Below, piece by piece: positions 1,443 to 15,418 of a stretch of 40,640 nucleotides of DNA (its first letter is position 1; each line of letters starts with the position of its first letter). The translations under genes and the position numbers were made by a program. This stretch comes from a virus. Where the stretch lies: the IMG/VR virus record IMGVR_UViG_3300021961_010363, positions 1 through 40,640 of that record; one strand, written 5' to 3'. The notes beneath the pieces were generated by a model. It ran no database searches, had not been told where the DNA came from, and saw only the letters and a program-made list of their open reading frames with translations.

Positions 1443-1709
1443 CTATCTGAGTTTGACAACCTGGTAGTTTTGTTCACCTTGCCAACTCAACTTAAAGTGT
1501 ACAACATCTTTGTCTTTTGTCAAATACAGCATATTGTAGAATGATTCTCCACGTATATCGTTCTCTGTTAGCCATACATCAAACTGAGATTTAATTTTAA
1601 ATGCCTTGCTCATGCCTTTGGGCCATCCTCCTGGTGCAGGAATGTAGATTTTCCATTTGTATTTCAGTTCGGCGTCTTTGTAAGTTTGTGGAGGTTGGTT
1701 AGGATTCAT
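1443..1709 (-). CDS. Small hypothetical protein, 88 residues
   Basis: The product starts MNPNQPPQTYKDAELKYKW and contains the Pro/Gly-rich segment IPAPGGWPKGMSKAF followed by a mixed beta-like stretch ending in QNYQVVKLR. There is no membrane segment, signal peptide or metal motif. I do not recognise the family. The ATG at 1709 overlaps the end of the upstream oxygenase gene by 11 bases, which supports this start over an ATG at 1757. It is in the operon of the TonB receptor and an oxygenase, just before tRNA-Glu. The function is unknown; the conserved-looking Trp, Gly and Pro residues suggest a small folded domain. Confidence 0.6.
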   Translation of the reverse strand: MNPNQPPQTYKDAELKYKWKIYIPAPGGWPKGMSKAFKIKSQFDVWLTENDIRGESFYNMLYLTKDKDVVHFKLSWQGEQNYQVVKLR

Positions 1710-2289
1710 CGTCGACGATGGAACAAACCAAATGTATTCTATCAATTTGGCTGGCATTCAAAGCTGTGTGCAAAGGTATTGTGTCGGTGTGCCACCATGT
1801 GTTGGCAGGCATGTGTTTGACTTCATCGCCTATTATCATCAAACAACCTTCGGCTGTTATCATGGGATAGTGTAGACGTGTGTTGTCATCGTTGTGCCAA
1901 CTCAGACAAGTCTTTGGTTTCATCTTCATCAATCTTATCCTGCCCAGTTTATCTGCATACTTGCTCTTGAGTGCTTGGTAGACTTCTTCGAACAAAGTAC
2001 CTTTCAACTGTTCACACAGCACTGTAAAATCTTTTTCCTTTTTAGGATTGGACAATTCAGGAACTATCCTCTCCATGGTGCCATCTTCATTCTTGATCCT
2101 GTAAGAGTTTTTCCAATCATACGTCAGACTGCCTGTGCCGAATTCGTAATCAGTGGGATTTTCTGGAGTGGTGTTGATGCAGATGCTGTTGTTTTCGTTC
2201 CAGTGTAGGATTTTTTCATCGATGAGTCTGTTCAACTCGGAGTTCAAATCTAAAACTGGTAGATCGTTAACAGGTGTAAAGTGAGTCAT
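1699..2289 (-). CDS. 2OG/Fe(II) oxygenase, aspartyl/asparaginyl beta-hydroxylase-like
   Basis: The 196-residue product has the facial-triad pattern of Fe(II)/2-oxoglutarate enzymes: H132-x-D134 in LSWHNDDNTR, distal H174 in IPLHTALNAS, and R184 in QIDRIHLV, the expected 2OG carboxylate ligand. The spacing is like Asp/Asn beta-hydroxylases and their small phage relatives. It would hydroxylate an unknown substrate using O2 and 2OG. It is the only oxygenase in the leftward operon, between the TonB receptor and the 88-residue gene. The start ATG at 2289 is 12 bases after the receptor stop. Fold assignment is good; the substrate is open. Confidence 0.75.
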   Translation of the reverse strand: MTHFTPVNDLPVLDLNSELNRLIDEKILHWNENNSICINTTPENPTDYEFGTGSLTYDWKNSYRIKNEDGTMERIVPELSNPKKEKDFTVLCEQLKGTLFEEVYQALKSKYADKLGRIRLMKMKPKTCLSWHNDDNTRLHYPMITAEGCLMIIGDEVKHMPANTWWHTDTIPLHTALNASQIDRIHLVCSIVDDES

Positions 2290-2301
2290 TGTCCATACTT
2301 A

Positions 2302-4110
2302 TCAGAAAAAATATTTGAGGGACACAGAAATTGTTCTTCCTGGTTGACTGTATCCATATGGCCTTTGGAAATTCAAATCTGTAACATTTTCTATTGCAGT
2401 CTTAATGATTAAATCATCTTTGATCAAATAGTTTGCTCCTATGTTAGTGAAGTGCTGATGGTTCCTATCTACTATGGCGTAACTTGTTGGGTGAATATCT
2501 CTGTGTTCTCCATAATACTGCCAGTCATACCACAAATTTAGTTTATCGTTTACTTGATGATCCACTCCTATGTTTGCCTGCCACCATGGGCGTCTTGTCA
2601 TTTGTGTGTCTGTGGAATCTTGTGCAGAGACATACATCAATCCTATTTTCAATGATGAATCGTCCACTTGTGTCCTGCTTGAAAAATCCCATCCATTTAT
2701 TTTGGTCTTGCCATCAGTGTCATTGGTGTATGTTGAATTGGCGTAGTTGATTTGATCTGTGATTTCGGTAGAGAAGAACATGCTTTTGCTTTCAAAAGTG
2801 TACCATTTATCCTGTGTGTATGTTTTGATACCTATCTCGTATGTTACTGATTTTTCTTCTTTAAGATTGGGATTTCCTGTGTATCCAAAATTGTCCGCAC
2901 CATACATCTCGTACAGCGTCGGTGCTTTGAATCCTGTGCTGGTTCCTGCAACAAGAGTCATCACATCGTTTAACTTATATCCGGATCCGAGCCTATATGT
3001 GGTCACAGGATTGTGCAGGCTGTTCCAGTCCTTCCTCACTCCGCCATTGATAATAAATTTGTTCTTTTCCCAATCAGCATTAATGAAAGTCGCATAATTT
3101 TCCGCATCTTTGTCAACAGACGAATTGTATGATCCTCTGTTTTGGAACTGTGCAGAGTAAAACTGTAAGTCCGTGCCGATGGTGTAATCCACTGTCCCCA
3201 CTTTGTCTGTGTAACTGATCACAGAGTGTTTGTTCTGGCTGTCGTAGTCATCAATTTCGGAACCGTTGATGTATTGACGATCATGCGAGTTGTAATCGAT
3301 CACAGCATTCCAGTTGTTGCCTTCGTATCTCAATTGATAAAAATAAAACTTTGCGTCTCCGGTGTAGTCAGAGTCGTCCACGCCACTACCGTCCAGTTCG
3401 GTCTCCGAATTCCTGTACACTATGGTCGACTTCAGCAAACCGCTGTTCAACCAATGTTCGGAGTCAAAGTTGATCGTTTGATAAGAATACCCATCATCGT
3501 CACCGTCCTTGACAACAGAGTAACCGTCGGATTGATCTTGTGTGGCCTTGATCGAATAGTTGCCCGACCCGTTGGCAAAACCTTTGTGAACATCTACCGC
3601 GCGGGTGTTGTTGGAACCATAGGTGACTGTTGCTTGGTCCACGAATGTAGGACTTGTGTTGATGTTGACTGCACCTCCTATGGCGCCCGATCCGAAAAAT
3701 GTGCTCTGTGATCCTTTGTAAATGTCAATGCCTGTCGAATATTCTACGGGATCATTGCCCGCATCGAACAATCCGTTGGTGGTGGAATGATCGGTTATGG
3801 GTGATCCGTTTATCATGAAAAGCGTGTGATTAGAATCGGTACCTCTGGTGAACACCGATGTCTGTTGTCCCTTACCACCCGAGCGTATGGATGTGATGGA
3901 TGAATTAGTGTTTAATAGATCACCTATCACAACCGAGTTGTTATTGTTTTTGGGGAAAACTGTGTCCACGTTCACAGTGTAGGTGCTGAGTCCTGTCGGA
4001 TACAGGAAATAGATCGGTATGGTTATTTCAAGCTCGGCTTTGGCCGAAAAAGGAAATATAACCGCCAGCCAGATGATTAAGATTTTTATAATTAGGTGTT
4101 TGTATAGCAT
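2302..4110 (-). CDS. TonB-dependent outer-membrane receptor, BtuB-like
   Basis: The 602-residue product starts with a signal peptide (IIKILIIWLAVIFPFSAKA). A TonB-box-like VDTVFP follows near residue 48. The plug domain comes next (residues about 58-155), with GDLLNTNSSI, IRSGGKGQQTSVFTRGT, LFMINGSPITD and GAIGGAVNI, all characteristic of TonB-dependent receptors. The rest is beta-barrel, rich in aromatic and Asp/Asn turns, and ends in the outer-membrane signature SLKYFF. The length and plug sequence are closest to BtuB-type cobalamin receptors, though siderophore or other ligands cannot be excluded. It overlaps the DUF6580-like gene by 83 bases. A full-length receptor in a T4-like phage is rare and suggests it is made to feed the infected cell or to alter surface recognition. 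Confidence 0.88.
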   Translation of the reverse strand: MLYKHLIIKILIIWLAVIFPFSAKAELEITIPIYFLYPTGLSTYTVNVDTVFPKNNNNSVVIGDLLNTNSSITSIRSGGKGQQTSVFTRGTDSNHTLFMINGSPITDHSTTNGLFDAGNDPVEYSTGIDIYKGSQSTFFGSGAIGGAVNINTSPTFVDQATVTYGSNNTRAVDVHKGFANGSGNYSIKATQDQSDGYSVVKDGDDDGYSYQTINFDSEHWLNSGLLKSTIVYRNSETELDGSGVDDSDYTGDAKFYFYQLRYEGNNWNAVIDYNSHDRQYINGSEIDDYDSQNKHSVISYTDKVGTVDYTIGTDLQFYSAQFQNRGSYNSSVDKDAENYATFINADWEKNKFIINGGVRKDWNSLHNPVTTYRLGSGYKLNDVMTLVAGTSTGFKAPTLYEMYGADNFGYTGNPNLKEEKSVTYEIGIKTYTQDKWYTFESKSMFFSTEITDQINYANSTYTNDTDGKTKINGWDFSSRTQVDDSSLKIGLMYVSAQDSTDTQMTRRPWWQANIGVDHQVNDKLNLWYDWQYYGEHRDIHPTSYAIVDRNHQHFTNIGANYLIKDDLIIKTAIENVTDLNFQRPYGYSQPGRTISVSLKYFF

Positions 4111-4513
4111 GTTTTAATATTATATAGAATAATATCGTGCTTGTCAATGTGTTGGTAAAAAACGGAATAGCCATGACATAACAGTTGATGAGTCCTTGCA
4201 GATCATAACCATACCAACCACTGGTCCATACACCAAAGTTAGTAATCAAGAAAAATATCACGCTGGAAACAATCGGTCCACGTCCGAAGTAGGCAATTAA
4301 AAATAGAGAACCATACACCCAAGCCATGAAACTGTGCCAACCTAATATCATGTCTGTGAACATGTACACCAATAACGCCGGCAACAGAGTATAGTGTCCC
4401 CCCAAACTGAAGATGGCCAACACAGGAGTGAAATTAGGAGGATGTGGTAAAAATCGTGACACCAAGATGAGGAATAAAAGGAAAATCTGTATGTGATTGA
4501 TTTTGTTCAGCAT
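4028..4513 (-). CDS. DUF6580-like integral membrane protein, possible vitamin/ECF-type transporter subunit
   Basis: The 161-residue product has about five hydrophobic segments. It carries RFLPHPPNFTPVLAIFSLGG near the N-terminus, the hallmark of the DUF6580 family as I remember it. DUF6580 proteins are small membrane proteins suspected of being transporter subunits; the function is not established. It is the first gene of the leftward operon and overlaps the TonB receptor, so the pair could form an outer plus inner membrane uptake route, for example for cobalamin or a related compound. The start codon lies 6 bases after a TACAAT -10 box, so the message may be leaderless. Family call is good; the transport role is inference. 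Confidence 0.7.
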   Translation of the reverse strand: MLNKINHIQIFLLFLILVSRFLPHPPNFTPVLAIFSLGGHYTLLPALLVYMFTDMILGWHSFMAWVYGSLFLIAYFGRGPIVSSVIFFLITNFGVWTSGWYGYDLQGLINCYVMAIPFFTNTLTSTILFYIILKHAIQTPNYKNLNHLAGGYISFFGQSRA

Positions 4514-4519
4514 TGTCTA

Positions 4520-4548
4520 ATTGTATTAGGTATATGTCCTGTTGTCAA
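4520..4548 (-). promoter_or_regulatory. Sigma70-type promoter for the leftward receptor operon
   Basis: The minus strand reads TTGACA (4543-4548), a 17-base spacer, then TACAAT (4520-4525). The start codon of the DUF6580-like gene begins 7 bases downstream of the -10 box, at about the expected transcription start. This predicts a leaderless transcript. No Shine-Dalgarno sequence is present. Confidence 0.75.
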
Positions 4549-4553
4549 TAATC

Positions 4554-4582
4554 TTGACAGACGACTCCTAAAATTGTATATT
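4554..4582 (+). promoter_or_regulatory. Sigma70-type promoter for the oxygenase operon
   Basis: The plus strand reads TTGACA (4554-4559), a 17-base spacer, then TATATT (4577-4582). The first start codon is at 4596, leaving a leader of about 6 bases and no room for a normal ribosome binding site. The -35 boxes of this and the divergent promoter are only 5 bases apart, so the two arms may be co-regulated or compete for polymerase. Confidence 0.75.
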
Positions 4583-4595
4583 ATAAGTACCGATT

Positions 4596-5210
4596 ATGTA
4601 CAGCGATCTTTTATCTTTTGGCGACGTCATCAAACTCGATTACTACGTCGAATGCCATAAGCTATTAGAGGAAATAGAACCGTTCGAATGGCTGAGATAC
4701 AACCCAAGGAAACCCATTCCAAGGCATGGACTGAGCGTTACCAGTCTCAATGGAACCAGAGATGGCATAGATTTAGATTCGTTGTATGAGTACAACAAGG
4801 AAAACAACACGAATTACACAGAGCTCGATTTCAAGACCAAAACCGATGTCTATCATGCGAGCGAGGAAACAAGAAAGGCAGTAGAACCGTTCGACGCCGA
4901 AATTTCACGCACCCATTTTTTGAAATTGGATGCTGGTGGATATTTTCCCGCCCACCGCGATTGGAGACATTTGGAACAGCAGACAAGTTTCCGAGTTTTA
5001 GTTCCTATAAAGAACTGCAATCCCCAAGACATGTACTTCATATATGATGGAAAAATACTAAATTTCCAGCACGGTTTTCCTTATTTTGTGAACACAAACA
5101 AGGAACACTGTCTGTTTTCGCTCTCAGGAAATAGTATTATGTTGGTACTTAATGTAGAGTGCAATTCAAAAACGTTAAATACAGTTATAGGAAGGATGGC
5201 ATCAAGATGA
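4596..5210 (+). CDS. 2OG/Fe(II) oxygenase, Asp/Asn beta-hydroxylase-like (operon gene 1)
   Basis: The 204-residue product has H120-x-D122 in GGYFPAHRDWR and distal H171 in NTNKEHCLFSL, followed by a strand IMLVLNV as in aspartyl/asparaginyl beta-hydroxylases. R133 (SFRVLVP) lies on the next strand. It is predicted to be a soluble non-haem iron oxygenase. It is the first gene of the rightward operon, starting 13 bases after the -10 box. Its TGA overlaps the ATG of the desaturase (ATGA at 5207-5210). The substrate could be a free amino acid, a peptide or a lipid head group; nothing in the sequence decides this. Confidence 0.75.
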   Translation: MYSDLLSFGDVIKLDYYVECHKLLEEIEPFEWLRYNPRKPIPRHGLSVTSLNGTRDGIDLDSLYEYNKENNTNYTELDFKTKTDVYHASEETRKAVEPFDAEISRTHFLKLDAGGYFPAHRDWRHLEQQTSFRVLVPIKNCNPQDMYFIYDGKILNFQHGFPYFVNTNKEHCLFSLSGNSIMLVLNVECNSKTLNTVIGRMASR

Positions 5211-5881
5211 CAACATGGTTTATAGTAATATTATGTGGAATAGTATGGTCTCAGATAATTTCTCACTGGGGAGCATCTATCCTACTTCACAGACATTACT
5301 GTCACAAGCAATTTAGAGTACCCGGATGGTTTGAAACCATTGGGTTGGCCATGCTGATGATCGCTTGTATCAGAACACCGATAGGTTGGATAGCATCACA
5401 CAGGATGCATCATGTCCATTCGGATACAGAACATGATCCCCATTCTCCTAAGTTTGTAGGCTTTTGGAAAGTGCTTTCAACGACATGGGAAATTCCAAAC
5501 ATACCTCCAAGATACGCAAGAGACTTGTACAAGAATCCTAAGCTTGTTTTTTGTCATAATCACTGGGGTAAAATTTTAATCGGAGCCAATGTTATCAGCT
5601 TTCTAATACATCCATACTTTTGGGTGGCATTTTGTGTTGTTCCTTTCATATTTGCAAAAATAGGTTTTGGACTTTTGAACACAGTGGGCCATTCCAAAGG
5701 ACCAAGCAATGTGCCTTGGCTCAATCTGTTTATCGCTGGTGAAGGATATCATAAAAATCATCACGAGAATTTCAGAAGAGTAAGATTACACAAATGGGAC
5801 ACGGGTGGATGGATAGCAGAAAAATTTTTCAAAAACTATGGACAAAAAAGAGACACTTCTAAGTCAGTCGTTAGCAGTTAG
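5207..5881 (+). CDS. Membrane fatty-acid (acyl-CoA/acyl-lipid) desaturase
   Basis: The 224-residue product has the three histidine boxes of the membrane desaturase family: HRHYCH (about residue 28), HRMHH (about 67) and HKNHH (about 183), which bind a di-iron centre. Two long hydrophobic hairpins flank the boxes. The pattern is that of delta-9 type acyl-CoA or acyl-lipid desaturases. It is shorter than bacterial DesC/Ole1-type enzymes (about 260-300) because the C-terminal tail is cut short. It would introduce a double bond into an acyl chain in the inner membrane. The ATG at 5207, preceded by AGGAAGG, is chosen over an earlier one inside the oxygenase gene. It overlaps the next gene by 44 bases. 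Confidence 0.88.
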   Translation: MTTWFIVILCGIVWSQIISHWGASILLHRHYCHKQFRVPGWFETIGLAMLMIACIRTPIGWIASHRMHHVHSDTEHDPHSPKFVGFWKVLSTTWEIPNIPPRYARDLYKNPKLVFCHNHWGKILIGANVISFLIHPYFWVAFCVVPFIFAKIGFGLLNTVGHSKGPSNVPWLNLFIAGEGYHKNHHENFRRVRLHKWDTGGWIAEKFFKNYGQKRDTSKSVVSS

Positions 5882-6623
5882 AACTTTTCCACTCAACGAA
5901 GTCAAACAGCTGTGTGATAATTTTTCTATCGAACATCATCATGAAGTTGCAAAACCAAAATCTAATATAGTCGATTGGCTCGCGCCGATGGTGGACCTTT
6001 CAGAATTTAAACATTTCTATCCGGCCAACGGAGTCACGGAAGGTTTGAACTATTGGATGATGCAGGAATCGAGATCGATTCAAGTCAAGGACGGAGAGTA
6101 TGCCTGGGTGGAGGGCAAGCAAGAAGGTGATGTTCATTACATCAGTTGTCCCAGTTCAGTTGACGGAAATTTTTGCGAAATCCCCACAGACAAACCAGTG
6201 GTTTTAGATTTGGCATATATTGGCTCCACTAAGATCGGCAAGTTAGATATACCAAAGAACGTAGAAAAAGTTTTCTTTTCATTGAGCAAAAGTTTCGGAT
6301 TAAGAAACTATAGGATAGGTTATTACTGGTCAAGAAGAGCCGATCCTATGTTGGAAAAATTGATCTACTCTGCAAAGTATTACAACTATTATTCATTCGC
6401 ATTGGGTGAAAAAATAATAGACCAATTCCCCATTGATTTCGTGCATGGCAAATTAGGCCATATTCAGCGAGACCTTTGCAAAGAATTGGACCTAAATCCC
6501 AGCGATTCATTATGGTTGGCAACCACTACAGATCAAGCATATAATAAGTTTAAGCGAGGAGACACGAATCGTGTTTGTTTAAGCGGTTTGATAGAAAAAG
6601 CATATTATGATAAATCCATTTAG
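5838..6623 (+). CDS. Short PLP-dependent aminotransferase-like protein (fold type I)
   Basis: The 261-residue product has key features of class I/II aminotransferases in order: NGVTEG at 64-69 (phosphate-binding turn), VVLDLAYIGS at 121-130 (D124 for the pyridine nitrogen, Y127), and SLSKSFGLRNYRIGYY with K151 as the likely Schiff-base lysine and R159 nearby. Normal members have 350-400 residues. The C-terminal small domain with the substrate carboxylate arginine appears much reduced. It may transaminate, racemise or decarboxylate an amino compound, or be a binding protein. It overlaps the desaturase by 44 bases and the TauD-like gene by 17, showing tight coupling. The family call is firm; activity is unproven. 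Confidence 0.8.
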   Translation: MDKKETLLSQSLAVRTFPLNEVKQLCDNFSIEHHHEVAKPKSNIVDWLAPMVDLSEFKHFYPANGVTEGLNYWMMQESRSIQVKDGEYAWVEGKQEGDVHYISCPSSVDGNFCEIPTDKPVVLDLAYIGSTKIGKLDIPKNVEKVFFSLSKSFGLRNYRIGYYWSRRADPMLEKLIYSAKYYNYYSFALGEKIIDQFPIDFVHGKLGHIQRDLCKELDLNPSDSLWLATTTDQAYNKFKRGDTNRVCLSGLIEKAYYDKSI

Positions 6624-7431
6624 ATCGATTGAGTCTATAGTAGGACTTTCTGATACACAGTTATTAGATTTGGCCAATACAATACACAAAGAAGGCGTAG
6701 CGGTTTTTTATGATCAAAATTTAACTATGTCCGACCTTGTAGAAGTTTGTAAAAAATTCGGCGAGTGCGAAACCCCCAATCTTTTCATGAATCCCAAGGA
6801 GCATCCAGAAATTTCTTTGGTGACAGGAAAACGCAAGGATGACGGTCAAAAAATAGGAATGTTTGGAGACACGGAATTGGGCTGGCATTCGAACGGAAAC
6901 TCGAGGCACTTGATTGATAAAATTCTCATAAGTTTGTATTGCGTTGAGGAAGACATCAACACCACCCTGAGCGTGTGTCACACTTCCAAACCTTTTTATG
7001 ACATGAGCCAAGATGAACAGGAGTATTGGAAGTCCATCAAAATAAGGTTAAAATTTGTTAACAACACAGTGTACAGTCTTGAAGAAGGTGACCCTGAACT
7101 GGAATTCATGAGCAAGCACAAAGGAAGCATCAGGAAGTTGGTCGATCAACACCCGCACACTGGAGATTTTTATTTCTATTTTCCATATCACTTCATAATC
7201 GGAGCCTGGGAAGGATCTAAAAAAATTGATCATACAGAATTAGTAAACAAATTGATGCCCAAAATATTCCAATCCAGATATCAGTATCATCATATATTCA
7301 AAAAAGGAGATCTGTTGTTGATGGATCAGTTTACAAGTTTACACAGACGCACTCCGGTAATGGACAAGGAAAGATTGTTATGGAGAGTGGCCAGCGATTT
7401 CAAAAGGATACATGATGAACAAAAATCTTGA
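6607..7431 (+). CDS. TauD/TfdA-like 2OG/Fe(II) dioxygenase with HxN in place of HxD
   Basis: The 274-residue product has the TauD/TfdA length and layout: N-terminal region GVAVFYDQNLT, metal motif LGWHSNGNSR (H94-S-N96), distal H246 in SLHRRTPV and R260 in LLWRVASDF for 2OG. The usual acidic ligand (HxD or HxE) is an asparagine here. In iron halogenases the same position is Gly or Ala, so a changed metal sphere can mean a new reaction, but Asn might also still bind iron. Neighbouring oxygenases keep HxD, so this is specific to this gene. It overlaps the PLP gene and the prolyl-hydroxylase-like gene. Small-molecule substrates are usual for the family. Confidence 0.8.
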   Translation: MINPFRSIESIVGLSDTQLLDLANTIHKEGVAVFYDQNLTMSDLVEVCKKFGECETPNLFMNPKEHPEISLVTGKRKDDGQKIGMFGDTELGWHSNGNSRHLIDKILISLYCVEEDINTTLSVCHTSKPFYDMSQDEQEYWKSIKIRLKFVNNTVYSLEEGDPELEFMSKHKGSIRKLVDQHPHTGDFYFYFPYHFIIGAWEGSKKIDHTELVNKLMPKIFQSRYQYHHIFKKGDLLLMDQFTSLHRRTPVMDKERLLWRVASDFKRIHDEQKS

Positions 7432-7993
7432 AAGATATCTGTACAGAGCTCAGTTCATAACACCCCAGAAGGCGGACGAGGTCAGGAATGTTTTAGACAC
7501 AGAAACAACTTGGGTGAACTTTGACTACAAAGGACCTGAGAATATCTGTGTGCAGGATAATCCTCAGATTCCATACCATGTCACCGAATTGGGTCTTGAA
7601 CATCAGATGACAAAATATTTAGAAACTCAAATTGACCGTGTTGTGGATGATTACATACACAACTATCTACAAGATATCACTTGGTTCACTTATTGGAATG
7701 GCAAGACACGATTCTATTATATTAGATATCCAACCGGGTCTGATGGAATGGGAACCCATGCGGATCACGTGAGGAACATATTCGACGGAACCAGGAGGGG
7801 AATTCCAACTCTGACTGTGCTTGGATCATTGAGTGACGAGTACGAAGGAGGAGATATTGTGTTTTGGCAAGACACACCCAAAAGATTGAAAAAAGGTGAA
7901 GTTTTTATCTTTCCTTCTATTTTCCTTTATCCGCATGAAGTAACTCCTATCACCCAGGGCACACGATACTCATTCGCTGTTTGGATATGGTAG
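7412..7993 (+). CDS. Prolyl 4-hydroxylase-like 2OG/Fe(II) oxygenase
   Basis: The 193-residue product has the P4H alpha-subunit pattern: YYIRYPTGSDGMGTHADHV with H116-x-D118, the strand LTVLGSLSDEYEGGDIVFW, then FPSIFLYPHEVTPITQGTRYSFAVWIW with distal H175 and R185. This is the standard small PKHD-type 2OG/Fe(II) oxygenase known in many T4-like marine phages. It would hydroxylate a protein side chain or a small molecule. ATG at 7412 or 7415 both fit. It overlaps the TauD-like gene by 20 bases and the methyltransferase by 7. It is the clearest oxygenase in the cluster. Confidence 0.88.
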   Translation: MMNKNLERYLYRAQFITPQKADEVRNVLDTETTWVNFDYKGPENICVQDNPQIPYHVTELGLEHQMTKYLETQIDRVVDDYIHNYLQDITWFTYWNGKTRFYYIRYPTGSDGMGTHADHVRNIFDGTRRGIPTLTVLGSLSDEYEGGDIVFWQDTPKRLKKGEVFIFPSIFLYPHEVTPITQGTRYSFAVWIW

Positions 7994-8631
7994 ACAAGAA
8001 CATTCCATGGCCCACGATAAATGACCAAACCTCTGAGTTTGTGAATGTGCCTCTTATAGAAAATTACAAATTCAAGGACATGTGGTACCTTGACACAGAG
8101 CAAGCCAAACCTTTGTTCGAAAAACAAGCAGACATCATCATACAAAAACAGTGCAAGGGAATAGTAGATGTGGGGTGCAGACACGGCCCCGTAAATGCTA
8201 TACTGCACGAAAAGGGTTACACAGATTACAGATACATGGGATTTGACACATCAGTCGAGCCCATAGAGTTGGCCAAACAACAATGGATACAGTTTCCAAA
8301 CATAGAATATAGGAATGTGTCATGGAATGACAAATCTAAAATCACAGTGGACTTTGATGTTGATCAAGTCATATGGAGTGGTGTTTTGATATACCAGCCG
8401 GACGAGCACCATCAAGTTTTCCATGATATCACTGTTGATTTATATAAAAGTAAAAATGCAATCATAGCTGAAGTATATCATGATCAGAAATACAAGGAAG
8501 ACAGGCTCCTATTAAATACCATTACACACGAAATGGATCAATACTCGCAGAGATACTCACAGGTTGATCAAACTCTTTTGGATTGTGAAATATTTTCCGG
8601 AAGGAGACTTGTCCTTGACATTACGATATAG
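7987..8631 (+). CDS. Class I SAM-dependent methyltransferase
   Basis: The 214-residue product has motif I GIVDVGCRHGPVNAIL near residue 60, with the expected glycine-rich SAM loop (VGCRHG, slightly changed from GxGxG). Motif II acidic end follows as YMGFDTSVEPIELAKQQW, and motif IV as VDQVIWSGVLIYQPDEH. It is a soluble Rossmann methyltransferase. The C-terminal part shows no target-recognition domain, so a small-molecule substrate is more likely than DNA. The ATG at 7987 is chosen over a TTG at 7981. It overlaps the upstream stop by 7 bases. It probably modifies the same product as the neighbouring oxygenases; this is inference. Confidence 0.75.
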   Translation: MVDKNIPWPTINDQTSEFVNVPLIENYKFKDMWYLDTEQAKPLFEKQADIIIQKQCKGIVDVGCRHGPVNAILHEKGYTDYRYMGFDTSVEPIELAKQQWIQFPNIEYRNVSWNDKSKITVDFDVDQVIWSGVLIYQPDEHHQVFHDITVDLYKSKNAIIAEVYHDQKYKEDRLLLNTITHEMDQYSQRYSQVDQTLLDCEIFSGRRLVLDITI

Positions 8632-8677
8632 AATAGAAAAAAGAAAAGTTGACGTCAGCAAGCGGAAGTATGTCAAC

Positions 8678-9394
8678 ATGGACCCTCACAACGATCGACC
8701 AGATTACGATCATCTCCAAATCCATGATCAATATGTTGGTTACAAAGACGCATTCTACACTCCGATCGATATGCCTAAGATTGATGTCGATCTCGATCAT
8801 ATAGAATCACTTTGGTCAGACCCAAGCATGGAAAAAGGAACAACTGCCGGCACCATCGCTGTGGGCAAAGTTTTGTTTTTAAAAATGAACATGTTCACAT
8901 ATGTGGATGGCAACCCGCCTTGGTATGCATGGGCAAAAAGTGAAATACCGCACATATGTGATTTCATCGACCAACTGCCTTTCAAATCTATAAGACAGTG
9001 TGCGTTTGTGCAACCACCCGACGTTACACCGCCACACTATGATGAGCCATTGACTATGACTCCACATCTCAGAGATAGTGCTCCGTCACAATACAGGATA
9101 AGGTGGAGCAAAGTTACAGACAAAGATAATGAGATATTTTACATGAGCAAGGATTCCGGAGCAACCAAAATTTACCCTGTGCTACCAGATGAAACCAACA
9201 CATACGTTTATGATGGTTCTGTGTGGGAACATGGCACTGATCGTGGATTTAAAATGAGCGAAAGAGCATTAATTGTCATGTCGGGGATACTGGATATCCC
9301 AAGGCATCATGCTCTGTTAGAAAAATCTATGGACAAATACAAGGATTATGTTTTGTATGACAAAGAATTCGAACATACCATATCTCAAAGTTAA
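8678..9394 (+). CDS. 2OG/Fe(II) oxygenase-like protein
   Basis: The 238-residue product (from ATG at 8678) has H120-x-D122 in VTPPHYDEPLTM, distal H185 in SVWEHGTDRGF and R196 in SERALIVMSG. This spacing fits double-stranded beta-helix oxygenases of the Asp/Asn hydroxylase type. The PPHYDEP motif resembles the PxHxD entry of that family. An open frame continues upstream to 8564 inside the methyltransferase gene, but the added residues look like shadow sequence. GGAAG lies about 10 bases before the ATG at 8678, so the shorter form is preferred. This is the only place with a gap inside the first half of the operon (46 bases). Confidence 0.7.
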   Translation: MDPHNDRPDYDHLQIHDQYVGYKDAFYTPIDMPKIDVDLDHIESLWSDPSMEKGTTAGTIAVGKVLFLKMNMFTYVDGNPPWYAWAKSEIPHICDFIDQLPFKSIRQCAFVQPPDVTPPHYDEPLTMTPHLRDSAPSQYRIRWSKVTDKDNEIFYMSKDSGATKIYPVLPDETNTYVYDGSVWEHGTDRGFKMSERALIVMSGILDIPRHHALLEKSMDKYKDYVLYDKEFEHTISQS

Positions 9395-10073
9395 TCTCAC
9401 AGTTCCGGTTTTAGATATTTGCGATGAAGCAAGTCATTTGCTTGAAAACAGAATGTATGAGCCTCATAGATCGGATGATGGTCGTGGTTGGAACGTGTTT
9501 ACTCTTTATGGTGAGGGAGAGTACATAACGATTGGCGGCAATTGGGGAGATCCTGCAAAATATCATTGGACTGACCTTGCAAAAAAGCACTGTCCAAAAA
9601 CTATCGAGTGGTTACAAAGTTTGCCATACACAGAAATTTATAGAGCAAGATTTATGTTTTTGGAGCCGGATGGACACATCAAGATACATCACGACAAAGA
9701 ACCCAACGAGATTTTAGGACACACAGTCGTCGACGATGCCATGAACATAGCAATCAAACATCCGCAAGGCTGTTACATGAGGCAGGTGTACAAGGATCAT
9801 TACAATGAAGTACCTTTTGAAAATGGCGCCGCATTTTTCTTCAACAATAGATACTTCCATTATGTACACAATAACAGCAATGAAACAAGGATCCATATGA
9901 TCATCCATGCAAAATGGTTGCCCTTAAACACTGAATACACTAAAATCAAATTGTTAGAAAAGAATTATTTAGATCACGACGAATTCGCATATTCGAACAA
10001 CCCATGGAACAACAAGGAAGCATTAGATGAAAAAATCTCAGCATATACACCAGACCTGTCTTATTGTTGTTGA
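9348..10073 (+). CDS. 2OG/Fe(II) oxygenase, Asp/Asn beta-hydroxylase-like
   Basis: The product is up to 241 residues. It shows RARFMFLEPDGHIKIHHDKEP with H114-x-D116 (or adjacent H115), then distal H171/H174 in YFHYVHNNSNETRIHMIIHAKW and R181. The FLEPDGHIKxHxD pattern is typical of Asp/Asn beta-hydroxylase relatives. A segment WGDPAKYHWTDLAKKHCPKT lies before the core. Starts at 9348 or 9357 are both possible; AAGGA at the end of the previous gene is 11 bases from the second. It overlaps both neighbours by 46-47 bases. The residues after the core (about 195-241) have no counterpart in the other oxygenases. Confidence 0.78.
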   Translation: MFCMTKNSNIPYLKVNLTVPVLDICDEASHLLENRMYEPHRSDDGRGWNVFTLYGEGEYITIGGNWGDPAKYHWTDLAKKHCPKTIEWLQSLPYTEIYRARFMFLEPDGHIKIHHDKEPNEILGHTVVDDAMNIAIKHPQGCYMRQVYKDHYNEVPFENGAAFFFNNRYFHYVHNNSNETRIHMIIHAKWLPLNTEYTKIKLLEKNYLDHDEFAYSNNPWNNKEALDEKISAYTPDLSYCC

Positions 10074-11265
10074 AAACTTAAACCAACAAGGAGACCATTT
10101 CGAAATCGGTGCTTGCCAAAATTATACCAGCAGTATGATTTATGAACTCCAAACCAAAGTTCCGGAGATGGCCATATACACTGTTGCTTCATATGATGAG
10201 GCCATGACCCATTTTGATAAGCACAAATATGTTTTCGTTTCTTCGATCGGAAATTACATAGAGTGGTACAACTTCAGTTACATCATTGACAGGATGGCCC
10301 AAGAAAATCTTGCATTGGTTGGACACATATTACACAAGCGTGGATATTATGAAATACATGATCAAGTTTTTGTGATTGATTCAGAAAAATGGAAGCAGGC
10401 CGGCAGTCCGCACATTAGAAAATCCGTCAAAGACAAAGCATGTGCTATTGAGAGAGATCCCGGAAACATTCACCACGATTACACACCAAAGTGGATCAAG
10501 GCGGATCAGAATTCACTTGCACAACCTTACAATATTCCTGTGGATGGCATGTTCCTTGGTTCTCAATTGATATCGGAGTTCGCCCATCAAAAACTGAACA
10601 TGTCTGCATTCAACAGCCTTGAAAGAAAACACAAGTATTATCTATATGGAGGGACAGAATGGTTTTATCCGGCTCTGTTCATGACAGAAAGTTATGCATT
10701 TTGTAACGAACCTTTAGAGAAGATGGCGGATGAAATGCCCACTGATGTTGAACAGTACTTTGGCATAGCCAGTCCCTACTATATATTGGCACTGTCATAC
10801 AAAAATCCCCAATGCAAGGATTGGCAAATCTTTGACAACAGCCACATACAATTATTATATTGCAAATGGGTATTAGAAAAATTGCCAACATTCGGATATG
10901 ATGTCAAACACACACTTTCCGCATTTCTGAGAGAATATCCTTGGATCAAATCTAAAGATTTTGAAGCCATCGACACAAACCCATATTTGGAAAAAATTAT
11001 CAATTACATTCAACGCATGGTCAAACCCTACGACTTGGGTAGCGTGAATTATATAGAACAAAATATATGGGTGGATCAAGAAATTAATATTTTAAACAAG
11101 CCGACCTTGGCCTACACGTCAAACGTTTTTAGATACCAGCCCGCTAGCAAATGGATGCCACTGTCAAAACAAAAACAAGCAGAAATAAAATTTTTAAATA
11201 TTTTAAAAAGCAATCCCAATGTTCATACCATTGTGAATGATATGAAAACAGAAAGGATCAAATGA
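10027..11265 (+). CDS. Large unknown protein, 412 residues, possibly glycosyltransferase-like
   Basis: I do not recognise this family with confidence. The product starts QTCLIVVENLNQQGDHFEIG and looks like an alpha/beta N-terminal domain (IYTVASYDEAMTHF, KYVFVSSIGNYIEWYNF). The segment LVGHILHKRGYYEIHDQVFVID resembles patterns in some glycosyltransferase-like proteins, as does LYGGTEWFYPALF later. No DxD motif is clear. There is no signal peptide or membrane segment. It is the largest gene of the operon, with ATG preceded by GGAAG, overlapping the oxygenase upstream by 47 bases and the SGNH gene downstream through ATGA. Its central place suggests it builds or carries the scaffold that the others modify, but this is a guess. 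Confidence 0.6.
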   Translation: MKKSQHIHQTCLIVVENLNQQGDHFEIGACQNYTSSMIYELQTKVPEMAIYTVASYDEAMTHFDKHKYVFVSSIGNYIEWYNFSYIIDRMAQENLALVGHILHKRGYYEIHDQVFVIDSEKWKQAGSPHIRKSVKDKACAIERDPGNIHHDYTPKWIKADQNSLAQPYNIPVDGMFLGSQLISEFAHQKLNMSAFNSLERKHKYYLYGGTEWFYPALFMTESYAFCNEPLEKMADEMPTDVEQYFGIASPYYILALSYKNPQCKDWQIFDNSHIQLLYCKWVLEKLPTFGYDVKHTLSAFLREYPWIKSKDFEAIDTNPYLEKIINYIQRMVKPYDLGSVNYIEQNIWVDQEINILNKPTLAYTSNVFRYQPASKWMPLSKQKQAEIKFLNILKSNPNVHTIVNDMKTERIK

Positions 11266-12080
11266 TGCAAATACACTGTTTTGGAGATTCTAATGTATGG
11301 GGAGATGAGCAACCAAACTGCACTATAGGTGTAGATTCACAACCCAGCAAGACTACTTTTCCTTATTACCTTGCAAAAAAGTTCAACATCGAGACTGTGA
11401 ACAATCATGCTGTGTCGGGAGGATCTTTGCAGTTGGTTTGTGACAGTGTGCTTTTTAATTTTTTACCTAAGAAATTTCCGTTGGATGACATCATCATTGT
11501 CTATCTACCCAACTGCTCTAAATATTCGTTTGTGACAAATGATAGAAAAGAATATAATAAAATCCGGGATATCATAAGATATCGATTAAGATCATGTGTG
11601 TATGATAATGATCTTAAGAAGGACACGGTCGAATGGATGATGCGACACATGTGGCATGAACAAGCATTGTATTACAACGTCATCAAGCATGTTACAACCA
11701 TCGATGTGTTCCTTAAAGACTATAAAAATGTTTTCTATTTTTGGAACACAAGACATCATCACAGTAATTTTAGAAAAGGCCAAGACGGGTTGGATTCTGA
11801 ATTAAATTTTAGGAATGCTTGGTTCCCCACTGACGATCTTGCAGAACCGTTCATAGGAAATAGCGTTTTTGACAGCGATATTATAGAACATCATGATCCA
11901 TTATTCGAAAACATAGCCAAACGCACAGTTGATTGGGATATTTTATCAGTATTCGATAGGATAAGCGACCAATTAAATGTACATAAATACAAACAGAAGC
12001 ATCATGCACCACAGGTTCATGAGCATTATGTTGATACATTTTTGTATGAACATATTAAGGAGAAAATGAATGTCGATTGA
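11262..12080 (+). CDS. SGNH/GDSL-like hydrolase
   Basis: The 272-residue product starts MMQIHCFGDSNVWGDE, where FGDSNVWG is block I of SGNH hydrolases with S10 as nucleophile. NNHAVSGGSLQ fits block II (Gly) and IIIVYLPNCSKY fits block III (Asn). A late His in HAPQVHEHYVDTF fits block V. Such enzymes act as esterases or O-acetyl hydrolases/transferases on glycans and lipids. There is no signal peptide, so it acts in the cytoplasm. It is coupled to the unknown 412-residue gene by ATGA and overlaps the next oxygenase by 11 bases. It might remove or add an acyl group on the pathway product. Confidence 0.68.
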   Translation: MMQIHCFGDSNVWGDEQPNCTIGVDSQPSKTTFPYYLAKKFNIETVNNHAVSGGSLQLVCDSVLFNFLPKKFPLDDIIIVYLPNCSKYSFVTNDRKEYNKIRDIIRYRLRSCVYDNDLKKDTVEWMMRHMWHEQALYYNVIKHVTTIDVFLKDYKNVFYFWNTRHHHSNFRKGQDGLDSELNFRNAWFPTDDLAEPFIGNSVFDSDIIEHHDPLFENIAKRTVDWDILSVFDRISDQLNVHKYKQKHHAPQVHEHYVDTFLYEHIKEKMNVD

Positions 12081-12666
12081 AAGTCCTATTGTTAACGATT
12101 ATGTGATCGAGTTACCACAACTTATAGATTTATTGCCGACTCCGGCAGAAGTACTCGCAATGAAATCTGCCAAGGTTGATGTGGTTGATCCGGAATACAC
12201 TTCTGCATGGGATGGCCAAAGATGGTATTTGATCACCGACAACTCAAAAAGCGAAACGGTCATCAGCAAGTTTAATTCTGCACACATGACAGCTTATCCT
12301 GAAGTATGGTTAGTAGAAAAGGAAGCAGACAAATGGGTACGCCCACACATCGACACAGACAGATTGGTTGTTTTAATTTACCCAATTGTTCCTTCATCTT
12401 ACGATATCCAATTCACCGATAAATGGGAAGGCGACAACAATTTCTTTTTCAGATCATATGAGAACACAACTCCATATGAGTATAATGTTTTGCACACCCA
12501 TACCTACACGTGTCCTACTCTTTTGAACAGTAAAATTCCACATTGTCTACCATCCACGGCTGCCAAAACAACTTTCCAAATTTCCTTGTATTTTGGTTAC
12601 GATGATTGTTCTGACTGGGCAGGGATAGTCAACACTTACAACAGCGGTGGGTTGATCACACTTTAA
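12070..12666 (+). CDS. 2OG/Fe(II) oxygenase-like, tandem paralogue A
   Basis: The 198-residue product has H93-x-D95 in KWVRPHIDTDRLVVLIYP and distal H158 in NSKIPHCLPSTAAKTTFQISLYF. It pairs with the next gene: both begin YVIELPQL/FVIELPQL and share the order PHxD, THTYTCPT or EHTYVCPT, then PHC or LHC and FQIS. They arose by tandem duplication. The usual 2OG-binding Arg after the distal His is a Lys in this copy, whereas the next copy has Arg. AAGGAG is about 7 bases before the ATG. The protein is a soluble cytoplasmic oxygenase of unknown substrate. Confidence 0.72.
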   Translation: MSIESPIVNDYVIELPQLIDLLPTPAEVLAMKSAKVDVVDPEYTSAWDGQRWYLITDNSKSETVISKFNSAHMTAYPEVWLVEKEADKWVRPHIDTDRLVVLIYPIVPSSYDIQFTDKWEGDNNFFFRSYENTTPYEYNVLHTHTYTCPTLLNSKIPHCLPSTAAKTTFQISLYFGYDDCSDWAGIVNTYNSGGLITL

Positions 12667-12673
12667 TTTTTCT

Positions 12674-13192
12674 ATGTACAATGATTTTGTCATAGAACTG
12701 CCCCAACTTTCAAATTTATATGACGAACAAAAGCTTTGGCAAGCCTGTCAGTCCAACCCCAGCCATGACAACAAAAATTATGGAGTGAAATGTTGGGAAG
12801 TGCCTTGCGATCAACCAGAAGTCAAACACATCTTTGATTTGATCAATCAGGACATCATGACTCAACCATTGATTGGTTGGTTGATGTACAAGTACAAAGA
12901 TGAGTGGCTGAAACCCCACGTCGATGTTGGCAGAGATGCGATATTGATGTTCCCCATACAGCCGAAAAATTACACCATATCTTTTTTAGACAACAAAGAA
13001 GACATGAATACGATATACGAACACACATATGTCTGTCCTACCATCGTGAATTCCAATGTTTTGCACTGTGTGTACGACAAGGGAATAGAAAGAAAATTCT
13101 TTCAGATAAGTTTCTCTTTTGACAATTGCACCTGGGATGATGTTATAAAATATGTTTACGATGGAAAATTATTACATAAAACTCTACAGTGA
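12674..13192 (+). CDS. 2OG/Fe(II) oxygenase-like, tandem paralogue B
   Basis: The 172-residue product has H82-x-D84 in WLKPHVDVGRDAILMFP, distal H131 in NSNVLHCVYDKGIERKFFQISFSF and R140 as the likely 2OG ligand. It is shorter than its upstream paralogue, mainly around the strand before EHTYVCPT. It starts 8 bases after the paralogue's stop. No good ribosome binding site is visible, so translation may depend on re-initiation. It overlaps the GNAT gene at its 3' end. Confidence 0.72.
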   Translation: MYNDFVIELPQLSNLYDEQKLWQACQSNPSHDNKNYGVKCWEVPCDQPEVKHIFDLINQDIMTQPLIGWLMYKYKDEWLKPHVDVGRDAILMFPIQPKNYTISFLDNKEDMNTIYEHTYVCPTIVNSNVLHCVYDKGIERKFFQISFSFDNCTWDDVIKYVYDGKLLHKTLQ

Positions 13193-13754: not shown

Positions 13755-13845
13755 TGATTGGTGGGCCTTAAAGGATTCGAACCTTTGGCCTTATCTTCCG
13801 CAAAGATACGCTCTGTCCAACTGAGCTAAAGGCCCACCAATCACT
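13753..13845. repeat. 17-bp perfect inverted repeat enclosing tRNA-Arg
   Basis: The 17-mer agtgattggtgggcctt at 13753-13769 is repeated as its exact reverse complement at 13829-13845. The inner 7 bp are the tRNA acceptor stem. The outer 10 bp extend it past the 3' CCA on one side and into the 5' leader on the other. In the precursor the leader would pair with A73, CCA and trailer. It lies at the convergent end of the oxygenase operon, overlapping the GNAT stop codon. Confidence 0.8.
13759..13835 (-). tRNA. tRNA-Arg (GCG)
   Basis: This is a complete 77-nt tRNA: acceptor GGGCCTT/AAGGCCC, D stem GCTC/GAGC, anticodon stem TATCT/AGATA with loop TTGCGGA giving GCG, T arm AAAGG/CCTTT, A73 and encoded CCA. 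A20 in the D loop and C35 agree with Arg identity. Bacteria normally read CGN with ACG (inosine), so a GCG anticodon is uncommon. Confidence 0.92.
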
Positions 13846-13852
13846 GGAACGC

Positions 13853-13942
13853 TGGCGGAAGGACTGGGATTCGAACCCAGGAAGGAGTTGCCCCCTTGTC
13901 GGTTTTCAAGACCGGTGCTTTCAACCACTCAGCCATCCTTCC
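13853..13942 (-). tRNA. tRNA-Ser (TGA)
   Basis: This is a complete 90-nt class II tRNA with acceptor GGAAGGA/TCCTTCC, loop CTTGAAA giving anticodon TGA, a long variable arm, T loop TTCGAAT, G73 and an encoded CCA. It lies 17 bases upstream of tRNA-Arg and is probably cotranscribed with it. Confidence 0.95.
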
Positions 13943-14032
13943 GAATAGATCAAGCACTTTTTTGCTGGGTGCAAACACCAAGCCCGGTCTCTAAAAACAC
14001 AGTGTGAGACCTCTATGTGCTTATTTTTTAGT

Positions 14033-14062
14033 ATTATAACACAAAAAGTTGATACAAAGCAA
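14033..14062 (-). promoter_or_regulatory. Possible promoter for tRNA-Ser/tRNA-Arg
   Basis: The minus strand reads TTGCTT (14057-14062), 18 bases, then a perfect TATAAT (14033-14038), overlapping the stop codon of the 92-residue gene. The 90 bases between it and tRNA-Ser carry a 6-bp GGTCTC/GAGACC hairpin and no gene. The -35 match is weak. Confidence 0.4.
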
Positions 14063-14312
14063 TTATATTCATTGTCGAGAACCATCCCGTCAGTACAACT
14101 ATCCAAGCCGCTTTTCTCATCACAGCCGCTACTAAACTTGTGACACTGCCTAAAAAATAGAATGGCACGAATATGTCGGGCCTTGGTGCCAAAACAGTGT
14201 AAGTCAATATTGCGGATCCTGTCATCACGCATATGGCGGAAAACATTTCAATCCAAAATGCTGTGGGATTGGATGTGTAAGATTCCTTCCAGAATTTTAT
14301 AATTTTATTCAA
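14034..14312 (-). CDS. Small membrane protein, 92 residues
   Basis: The product starts MNKIIKFWKESYTSNPTAFWIEMF and has three hydrophobic segments (about residues 19-40, 48-65 and 68-90). The sequence KESYTSNPTAFWIEM followed by RKAAWIVVLTGWFSTMN resembles a short membrane protein that recurs in marine T4-like phages. The function is not known. It overlaps the 70-residue gene by 8 bases and is in the tRNA cluster transcribed from the promoter at 14759. It is probably in the inner membrane. Confidence 0.7.
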   Translation of the reverse strand: MNKIIKFWKESYTSNPTAFWIEMFSAICVMTGSAILTYTVLAPRPDIFVPFYFLGSVTSLVAAVMRKAAWIVVLTGWFSTMNIIALYQLFVL

Positions 14313-14517
14313 AGTATTTTTTTATTATTTCAAGTTGATCATCATATTCTGCTATGACTTTGAGTTCTTTTTCGATTGCCTCTAACACGTCAGGATGTTC
14401 TCCAACTCCTGCCGAGTTTTTTAGATACACTTCAACATTCATTGCATGTTTGGCTATGTGTCCTTTGGCGTGTTCTTTGAGAGCCTGTATCATATTTTCT
14501 CTGTTATACATTTTCAT
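14305..14517 (-). CDS. Conserved small phage protein, 70 residues
   Basis: The helical, charged product contains ALKEHAKGHIAKHAMNVEVYLKNSAGVGEHPDVLEAIEKEL, a pattern I recall from small proteins of marine T4-like phages. It has several His residues (HAKGHIAKH) but no clear metal site. AAAGGAA lies just before the ATG at 14517, supporting the longer start over the internal Met at 14511. It overlaps the membrane-protein gene, so the two may act together. The function is unknown. Confidence 0.7.
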   Translation of the reverse strand: MKMYNRENMIQALKEHAKGHIAKHAMNVEVYLKNSAGVGEHPDVLEAIEKELKVIAEYDDQLEIIKKYFE

Positions 14518-14532
14518 TTTATTTCCTTTTGT

Positions 14533-14608
14533 TGGTGGAGGATAGCGGGATCGAACCGCTGACCTCCTGAATGCAAATCAGGCGCTCTCCCAGCTGAGCT
14601 AATCCCCC
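14533..14608 (-). tRNA. tRNA-Ala (TGC)
   Basis: This is a complete 76-nt tRNA: acceptor GGGGGAT/ATCCTCC with the Ala-type G3-U70 pair, anticodon stem CCTGA/TCAGG with loop TTTGCAT giving TGC, A73 and an encoded CCA. It is 5 bases downstream of tRNA-Thr. Confidence 0.95.
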
Positions 14609-14613
14609 AACGT

Positions 14614-14689
<76 letters not shown>

Positions 14690-14806: not shown

Positions 14807-15418
14807 TTATTTTAGTTTTTTTGCGATTGCTTTAAGCAACACACCATATGCTGGTAGGAACACAATTAATCCCACCACAATCTTTGTGAGCGTATTGTTG
14901 AACGCCACTGGTCCCACCCATGGTTGCGGATAAAACGCTGTGTAAAAGAAAGTGTAGGTGTCAATGATGTTGGCCACGATGGTTGATAGTGCTGGTGCAG
15001 CCCACCATGCTTCTGTCCATCGTTCTCTGATGTGCTGGAACACATACACGTCAAGCATTGTGCCCACTGCGTAAGCAGTACCTGATGCGATACCCACTCT
15101 GTATGCGTGTTCGTCACCGAGTGCTAACAGCACTAACACTGAAGCCACGATGGCTGGAATGATGGCAAGTGCCACGACAGCTCTGCCGGCCTGCTTGCCA
15201 ACCAATCTAACTGTCAAGTCGGTCGCTACTACGACAATCGGAAATGTGAACGCCGCCGCAGCTAATGGAAATTCTCCGAACAACGGAAGATCCGCTCCTG
15301 GAAACAGATTAAATCTGATCGTAACAAGATAATTCGACACCGCAATAACCAGCGTGTGTAAAATTACTAAGTTTCTCACAAGTGTCTTATCAACACCTGA
15401 TAACAATTTACTAAACAT
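14807..15418 (-). CDS. yhhQ: Queuosine-precursor transporter, YhhQ/VUT family
   Basis: The 203-residue product has about six hydrophobic segments and the family hallmark SNYLVTIRFNLFP...FGEFPLAAAAFTFPIVVVATDLTVRLVG, where the FP-x8-D-x4-R region is conserved in VUT (former DUF165) proteins. NIIDTYTFFYTAF is the second conserved block. These inner-membrane proteins import preQ0/preQ1, precursors of queuosine in tRNA or of 7-deazaguanine bases in DNA. In phages the genes often go with base-modified genomes, but no DNA transglycosylase or preQ0 synthesis gene is in this window. AGAGGAG precedes the ATG. It has its own weak promoter upstream and a GC hairpin downstream. Confidence 0.85.
   Translation of the reverse strand: MFSKLLSGVDKTLVRNLVILHTLVIAVSNYLVTIRFNLFPGADLPLFGEFPLAAAAFTFPIVVVATDLTVRLVGKQAGRAVVALAIIPAIVASVLVLLALGDEHAYRVGIASGTAYAVGTMLDVYVFQHIRERWTEAWWAAPALSTIVANIIDTYTFFYTAFYPQPWVGPVAFNNTLTKIVVGLIVFLPAYGVLLKAIAKKLK

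Follow-up and report, generated by a model that had tools for sequence, protein, structure and literature searches.

Among known systems, BtuM is a solitary S-component-like protein that supports vitamin B12 uptake in Escherichia coli, has an essential invariant cysteine and is encoded by a gene found near btuB (PMC6072759). CbrT belongs to the B12-specific ECF-CbrT complex (6FNP; PMC5997447), in which it works with an ECF module. In phages, the nearest precedents for the gene pair described here are glutamine riboswitches, such as that of phage Melnitz (PMC9004378), and preQ0 transporters, such as those of phages Vid5 and PSTCR7; they too are a phage-borne regulatory RNA or small-molecule transporter, but their ligands are different and they do not pair a receptor in the outer membrane with a matching transporter in the inner one. 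No such module was found described in the literature on B12 uptake, btuB or cobalamin riboswitches in phages, and no publication naming DUF6580 was found, in a search that covered few subscription papers and preprints.

The stretch of DNA analysed here, called the window, is the whole of IMG/VR record IMGVR_UViG_3300021961_010363 (40,640 bases). The window is phage DNA, because UvsX, a gp32-like SSB, the large terminase, and tail sheath and tail tube proteins are recognised in the same record; judged by this gene content, the record is a fragment of a T4-like myovirus; the virus is marine and infects bacteria. Its terminase is closest to that of the large Pseudomonas phage PA5oct group (55%). 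Six tRNA genes were identified (1258-1440 and 13759-14689, minus strand), one of which has the unusual phenylalanine anticodon AAA. A second micronutrient transporter, for a queuosine precursor, is encoded at 14807-15418 on the minus strand (PF02592, 75 bits; TIGR00697, 92 bits against a cut-off of 51) and has relatives in deposited phages, including Vid5 and PSTCR7. The minus strand of the window carries two intact orfs, DUF6580 first and then a TonB-dependent receptor, which are best explained as an operon for corrinoid (vitamin B12) import that the phage carries, with an outer- and an inner-membrane half, at a probability of roughly 0.84; its transport activity and ligand are those that we infer from the comparisons below.

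The gene for the outer-membrane half of the cassette (2302..4110, minus strand) starts with ATG, has no internal stop codon and encodes a BtuB-like TonB-dependent receptor of 602 amino acids. A plug domain at residues 59-147 (3670..3936, minus strand; PF07715, 45.3 bits, above the cut-off) is followed by a full beta-barrel that runs through a terminal phenylalanine (2305..3504, minus strand; PF00593, 92.4 bits, above the cut-off, matching residues 203-568 of 602), which is the arrangement of plug, barrel and C-terminal aromatic residue that characterizes TonB-dependent receptors. The initial annotation of a complete receptor with plug and terminal phenylalanine is confirmed by the orf and by Pfam, and the signal peptide that it mentioned was recognised by eye as a signal-peptide-like N-terminus ending ...FSAKA-ELE. 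Just past the predicted signal peptide is a TonB-box-like segment, ELEITIPI (residues 26-33; 4012..4035, minus strand), identified by eye, as were its invariant or conservative alignment in near relatives and the equivalent segments of other viral and bacterial receptors.

Among solved structures in the PDB, those of E. coli BtuB match the receptor best, over its residues 59-602 (5.5e-25). Among NCBIfam models, BtuB (TIGR01779) ranks first with 177.3 bits, ahead of heme receptors (85 bits) and siderophore receptors (lower still), but no receptor model reaches its own cut-off with this protein. Since TIGR01779 requires 599.7 bits, the receptor is annotated as BtuB-like rather than BtuB; it shares with BtuB the plug and barrel, the best-scoring named family and a full-length match to the E. 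coli protein, whereas its identity to enterobacterial BtuB is only about 25%. Matches to the receptor in deposited phages were confined to bacterial contigs or bacterial-type btuB.

The DUF6580 gene (4028..4513, minus strand) encodes a membrane protein of 161 amino acids, predicted from PF20221, AlphaFold2 and VIA-align to be an S-component-like inner-membrane transporter. With 87.4 bits against a PF20221 cut-off of 27, it is a full member of the family and not merely "DUF6580-like" as originally annotated. The overlap of the receptor with a small transporter-like gene was also correctly reported, with exact coordinates: the two reading frames share 83 nucleotides (4028..4110, minus strand) and are likely to be translationally coupled.

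An AlphaFold2 model of DUF6580 was built from 32 viral sequences (mean pLDDT 84). Its VIA-align scores were Z 11.9 for BioY, 11.4 for BtuM with cyanocobalamin, 9-11 for FolT, 9.2 for PanT and 7.8 for ThiT; every match with Z of 8 or more is an S-component, and apart from MreD (7.8) the values drop to 4.6 after the twelve S-component entries (7.4-11.9). Chance alone can give helical bundles Z values as high as 13, and these scores are to be read accordingly. By VIA-align the model has the six-helix fold of ECF S-components, which are also the top matches in Foldseek, with weak E values (best 0.75). The sole match in a PDB profile search was CbrT (6fnp chain A, profile positions 8-82), at a marginal E value of 0.0037, and BtuM gave no sequence match in the same search. 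DUF6580 resembles CbrT in this weak sequence similarity, but no ECF module is encoded beside DUF6580 in the loci examined. It resembles BtuM in fold, in small size and in the location of its gene near a B12 receptor, although the BtuM gene is usually near btuR. DUF6580 also has an invariant cysteine, a candidate counterpart of that of BtuM: Cys111 (codon 4181..4183, minus strand) is invariant in the 32-sequence viral alignment, and the cysteine is also found in 79 of 80 bacterial homologues. Five diverse DUF6580 query sequences found no match in deposited phage genomes.

A profile scan of IMG/VR gave 78 viral DUF6580 loci, and their orfs were searched with profiles for the receptor. Besides the window, 36 viral contigs have the receptor adjoining DUF6580 on the same strand (DUF6580 first in 24, receptor first in 12), with the two genes overlapping or at most 152 nucleotides apart, and with flanking genes that encode terminase, gp32 and UvsX, gp23 capsid, neck protein and nucleotide kinase, helicase and primase, or ClpP. 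The cassette is thus found at many different positions in T4-like genomes. Single-sequence scans found intact pairs in L003, L004 and L009, the last in a gene neighbourhood unlike that of the window, whereas the genes directly flanking the window's cassette are kept in its relatives. Full-length relatives retain gene order and overlap at identities of 82, 77 and 60% for the receptor and 70, 77 and 57-58% for DUF6580, and where dN/dS was computable the receptor gave values of 0.055-0.076 and DUF6580 values of 0.066-0.10, the synonymous sites being nearly saturated. Because order and overlap are kept while dN/dS is about 0.05-0.10, the pair is not a product of chance or decay; as gauged from these substitution ratios, the cassette is under purifying selection. 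Premature stops were looked for in relatives and none was found, so the receptor is not a decayed fragment. DUF6580 is absent from all 50 control records chosen by terminase similarity, many of which are short fragments, and is therefore considered a patchy accessory gene.

In a quick tree of 86 receptors with SH-aLRT support and without bootstraps, all 33 viral receptors form one clade (95) that is sister to 14 SAR11 receptors (99), which favours an old viral lineage over repeated recent capture. The E. coli receptors lie outside this clade on long branches, so that the phylogeny called for in the initial annotation yielded a bacterial sister group but no union with E. coli BtuB. Host DNA misassembled onto a phage, or a host gene picked up accidentally and now in decay, is an exceedingly improbable source of the cassette: some IMG/VR contigs are wrongly assembled, and SAR11 and SAR116 own the same operon, but the pair is kept within phage genes on independent contigs from different samples, a Gp23 capsid gene is present in 19 of 50 viral DUF6580 records, and both the separate clade of viral receptors and the purifying selection argue against such an origin.

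Another 41 viral contigs have DUF6580 without the receptor. Two of these, L055 and L062, have flanks that match those of L021 and L028, but the receptor is gone and DUF6580 is retained, as in a natural deletion. In L069 and L076, the slot that holds the receptor in L035, L037, L038 and L040 is occupied by an unrelated secreted protein of 115-120 amino acids with a C-terminal tryptophan, which is encoded directly upstream of DUF6580 in L020 (565-924), L024, L026, L027, L029, L031 and L033 as well. This protein belongs to no Pfam family and has no similarity to the receptor, and a structure model of its 120-residue version was unusable (pLDDT 36). The order secreted protein, DUF6580, primase recurs in L119, a contig binned with a Marinimicrobia genome; because this gene order is of the phage type, L119 is probably phage DNA inside the bin. 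In a further viral group (L041, L042, L052-L054), the receptor is absent and DUF6580 directly follows genes for GroEL and NAD synthetase.

TonB-dependent receptors, BtuB included, are well known as receptors for phages, and the viral receptor, being intact and kept, might serve in superinfection exclusion, as the initial annotation suggested, or in receptor masking: as a replacement in the outer membrane it would block or divert competing phages that bind the host's BtuB-like protein. This is quite unlikely to be the main role of the cassette, because it leaves unexplained the co-conserved inner-membrane S-component, the B12 riboswitches described below and the kept TonB-box-like segment, and because the retention of DUF6580 after receptor loss in L055 and L062 is the opposite of what exclusion predicts; exclusion may be a side effect.

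L013, L014 and L015 each have an AdoCbl-II riboswitch at the cassette, recognised with Rfam (72-81 bits, cut-off 36.5). Among 50 whole records, they occur in 13 of the 35 that carry the receptor versus none of the 15 with DUF6580 alone, a contrast of about 0.004 by a hand calculation that ignores kinship among records. Every positive record has a single match, and all 13 are at the cassette, 11 of them 76-98 nucleotides before DUF6580 and two between DUF6580 and the receptor; in L039, a sub-threshold Cobalamin match (29.2 versus 31.5 bits) lies just before the receptor. A search to E 10 found no B12 riboswitch at the window's own cassette, including the divergent intergenic region of 82 nucleotides before it (4514..4595), and none is at the cassettes of L003, L004 and L009. 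The B12 assignment of the window's cassette therefore rests on its relatives; those closest to its receptor in the tree that bear the riboswitch are L013 and L014, and the window's lineage is proposed to have lost or replaced the riboswitch.

A scan of bacterial genomes found 80 DUF6580 loci, mainly in SAR11 and SAR116 but also in SAR86, Marinimicrobia and Bacteroidota. Most of the SAR11 and SAR116 loci have the receptor just upstream, and when receptor-DUF6580 pairs were searched for nearby B12 riboswitches, as had been proposed, 26 of 27 bacterial loci were positive, with a Cobalamin or AdoCbl-II riboswitch (Rfam) just upstream of the receptor. The possibility that DUF6580 has no link to receptors elsewhere did not materialize, the linkage being strong in viruses and bacteria. 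The SAR11/SAR116 operon is like the phage cassettes in the adjacency of both families, in its riboswitch classes and in the sister relationship of its 14 SAR11 receptors, but its order is receptor then DUF6580, whereas phages use either order, and the phage cassettes sit among phage core genes, many without a riboswitch.

Beyond SAR11 and SAR116, DUF6580 is frequently found without a receptor, and since this is also the case in the 41 viral contigs, B12 may not be its sole substrate. The cargo could be cobinamide or another corrinoid, the lower-ligand base of B12, cobalt or else a different vitamin, B12 status then being only a regulatory signal: proteins with S-component folds handle biotin, folate, thiamin and B12, so that the fold cannot show the substrate, and DUF6580 occurs widely at loci that lack a B12 signal. 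Such a cargo is unlikely, however, as the BtuB-like receptor, the B12 riboswitch and the similarity to CbrT all indicate corrinoids.

Near the window's cassette (1699-13192), genes for five iron enzymes are supported by Pfam, namely two Asp/Arg hydroxylases, TauD, 2OG-FeII_Oxy_3 and a fatty acid desaturase; the ten originally counted were not reached, though others may be too diverged. Uptake of iron or another chelated metal to supply these iron-dependent oxygenases was among the functions first considered, and iron chelates are common cargo of TonB-dependent receptors, with several 2OG-Fe(II) oxygenase genes nearby. This function is very unlikely: the link to the iron enzymes is one of proximity only, and in L009, L013-L016 and other records the pair sits in quite different neighbourhoods; the controlling RNAs are B12 riboswitches; DUF6580 resembles S-components for B12 and other vitamins, not iron ABC or Feo transporters; and no siderophore or heme receptor model scores as high as that of BtuB. 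The other cargo named at the outset, cobalamin, is favoured by the riboswitches of sister phages and of the bacterial operon, by the S-component fold and by BtuB as the nearest named receptor.

Possible consumers of B12 were sought among phage and bacterial enzymes. The B12-dependent ribonucleotide reductase NrdJ was not found above the cut-off in 50 DUF6580-bearing viral records. An NrdA-like gene of 765-811 amino acids, accompanied nearby by one for a class I small subunit, is present in six records, of which five carry the receptor and one has only DUF6580. The phage's own reductase therefore looks B12-independent, and a phage-coded B12-dependent reductase was rejected as the consumer. NrdJ is above the cut-off in SAR116 owners of the operon, while full-length MetH is not in any of 23 genomes of bacterial operon owners. 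B12-binding domains are present in 10 of the 50 viral records versus 1 of 28 terminase-related controls, the contigs compared being fragments of unequal length that are not independent; this is suggestive of B12-binding radical-SAM enzymes as B12 consumers in these phages. One protein with B12-binding and radical-SAM domains is encoded near the cassette of L014 (3-1889, minus strand). No B12-binding domain was found in the window.

According to the proposed corrinoid import mechanism, the BtuB-like receptor would be made in the infected cell and powered by host TonB to move B12 across the outer membrane, and DUF6580, as a solitary S-component-like inner-membrane protein, would then take the vitamin through to the cytoplasm in the manner of BtuM. 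Many relatives have a phage-borne AdoCbl-II riboswitch that would switch the operon, with expression expected during a B12 shortage in the infected cell. The imported B12 would serve host or phage enzymes during replication, to the presumed benefit of the phage. A more elaborate version is put forward tentatively, as somewhat less than an even chance. In it, complete B12 importers of an ancient, virus-specific lineage, with a new solitary S-component family and phage-borne riboswitches, would seize scarce B12 for the marine phages' own B12-dependent radical-SAM enzymes or for the host's B12-dependent nucleotide reduction, and B12 would be a limiting resource of infection.

The ocean holds little vitamin B12, and many abundant bacteria are unable to synthesise it. 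Because dozens of related uncultured viruses carry the pair, some with a B12 riboswitch, the vitamin supply of infected cells is probably under viral control. A phage with both membrane halves of B12 import and, in relatives, its own B12-sensing RNA would make vitamin supply part of its infection strategy, and its cassette would move B12 uptake genes between marine bacteria. DUF6580, a widespread family without an assigned function, gains a suggested one.
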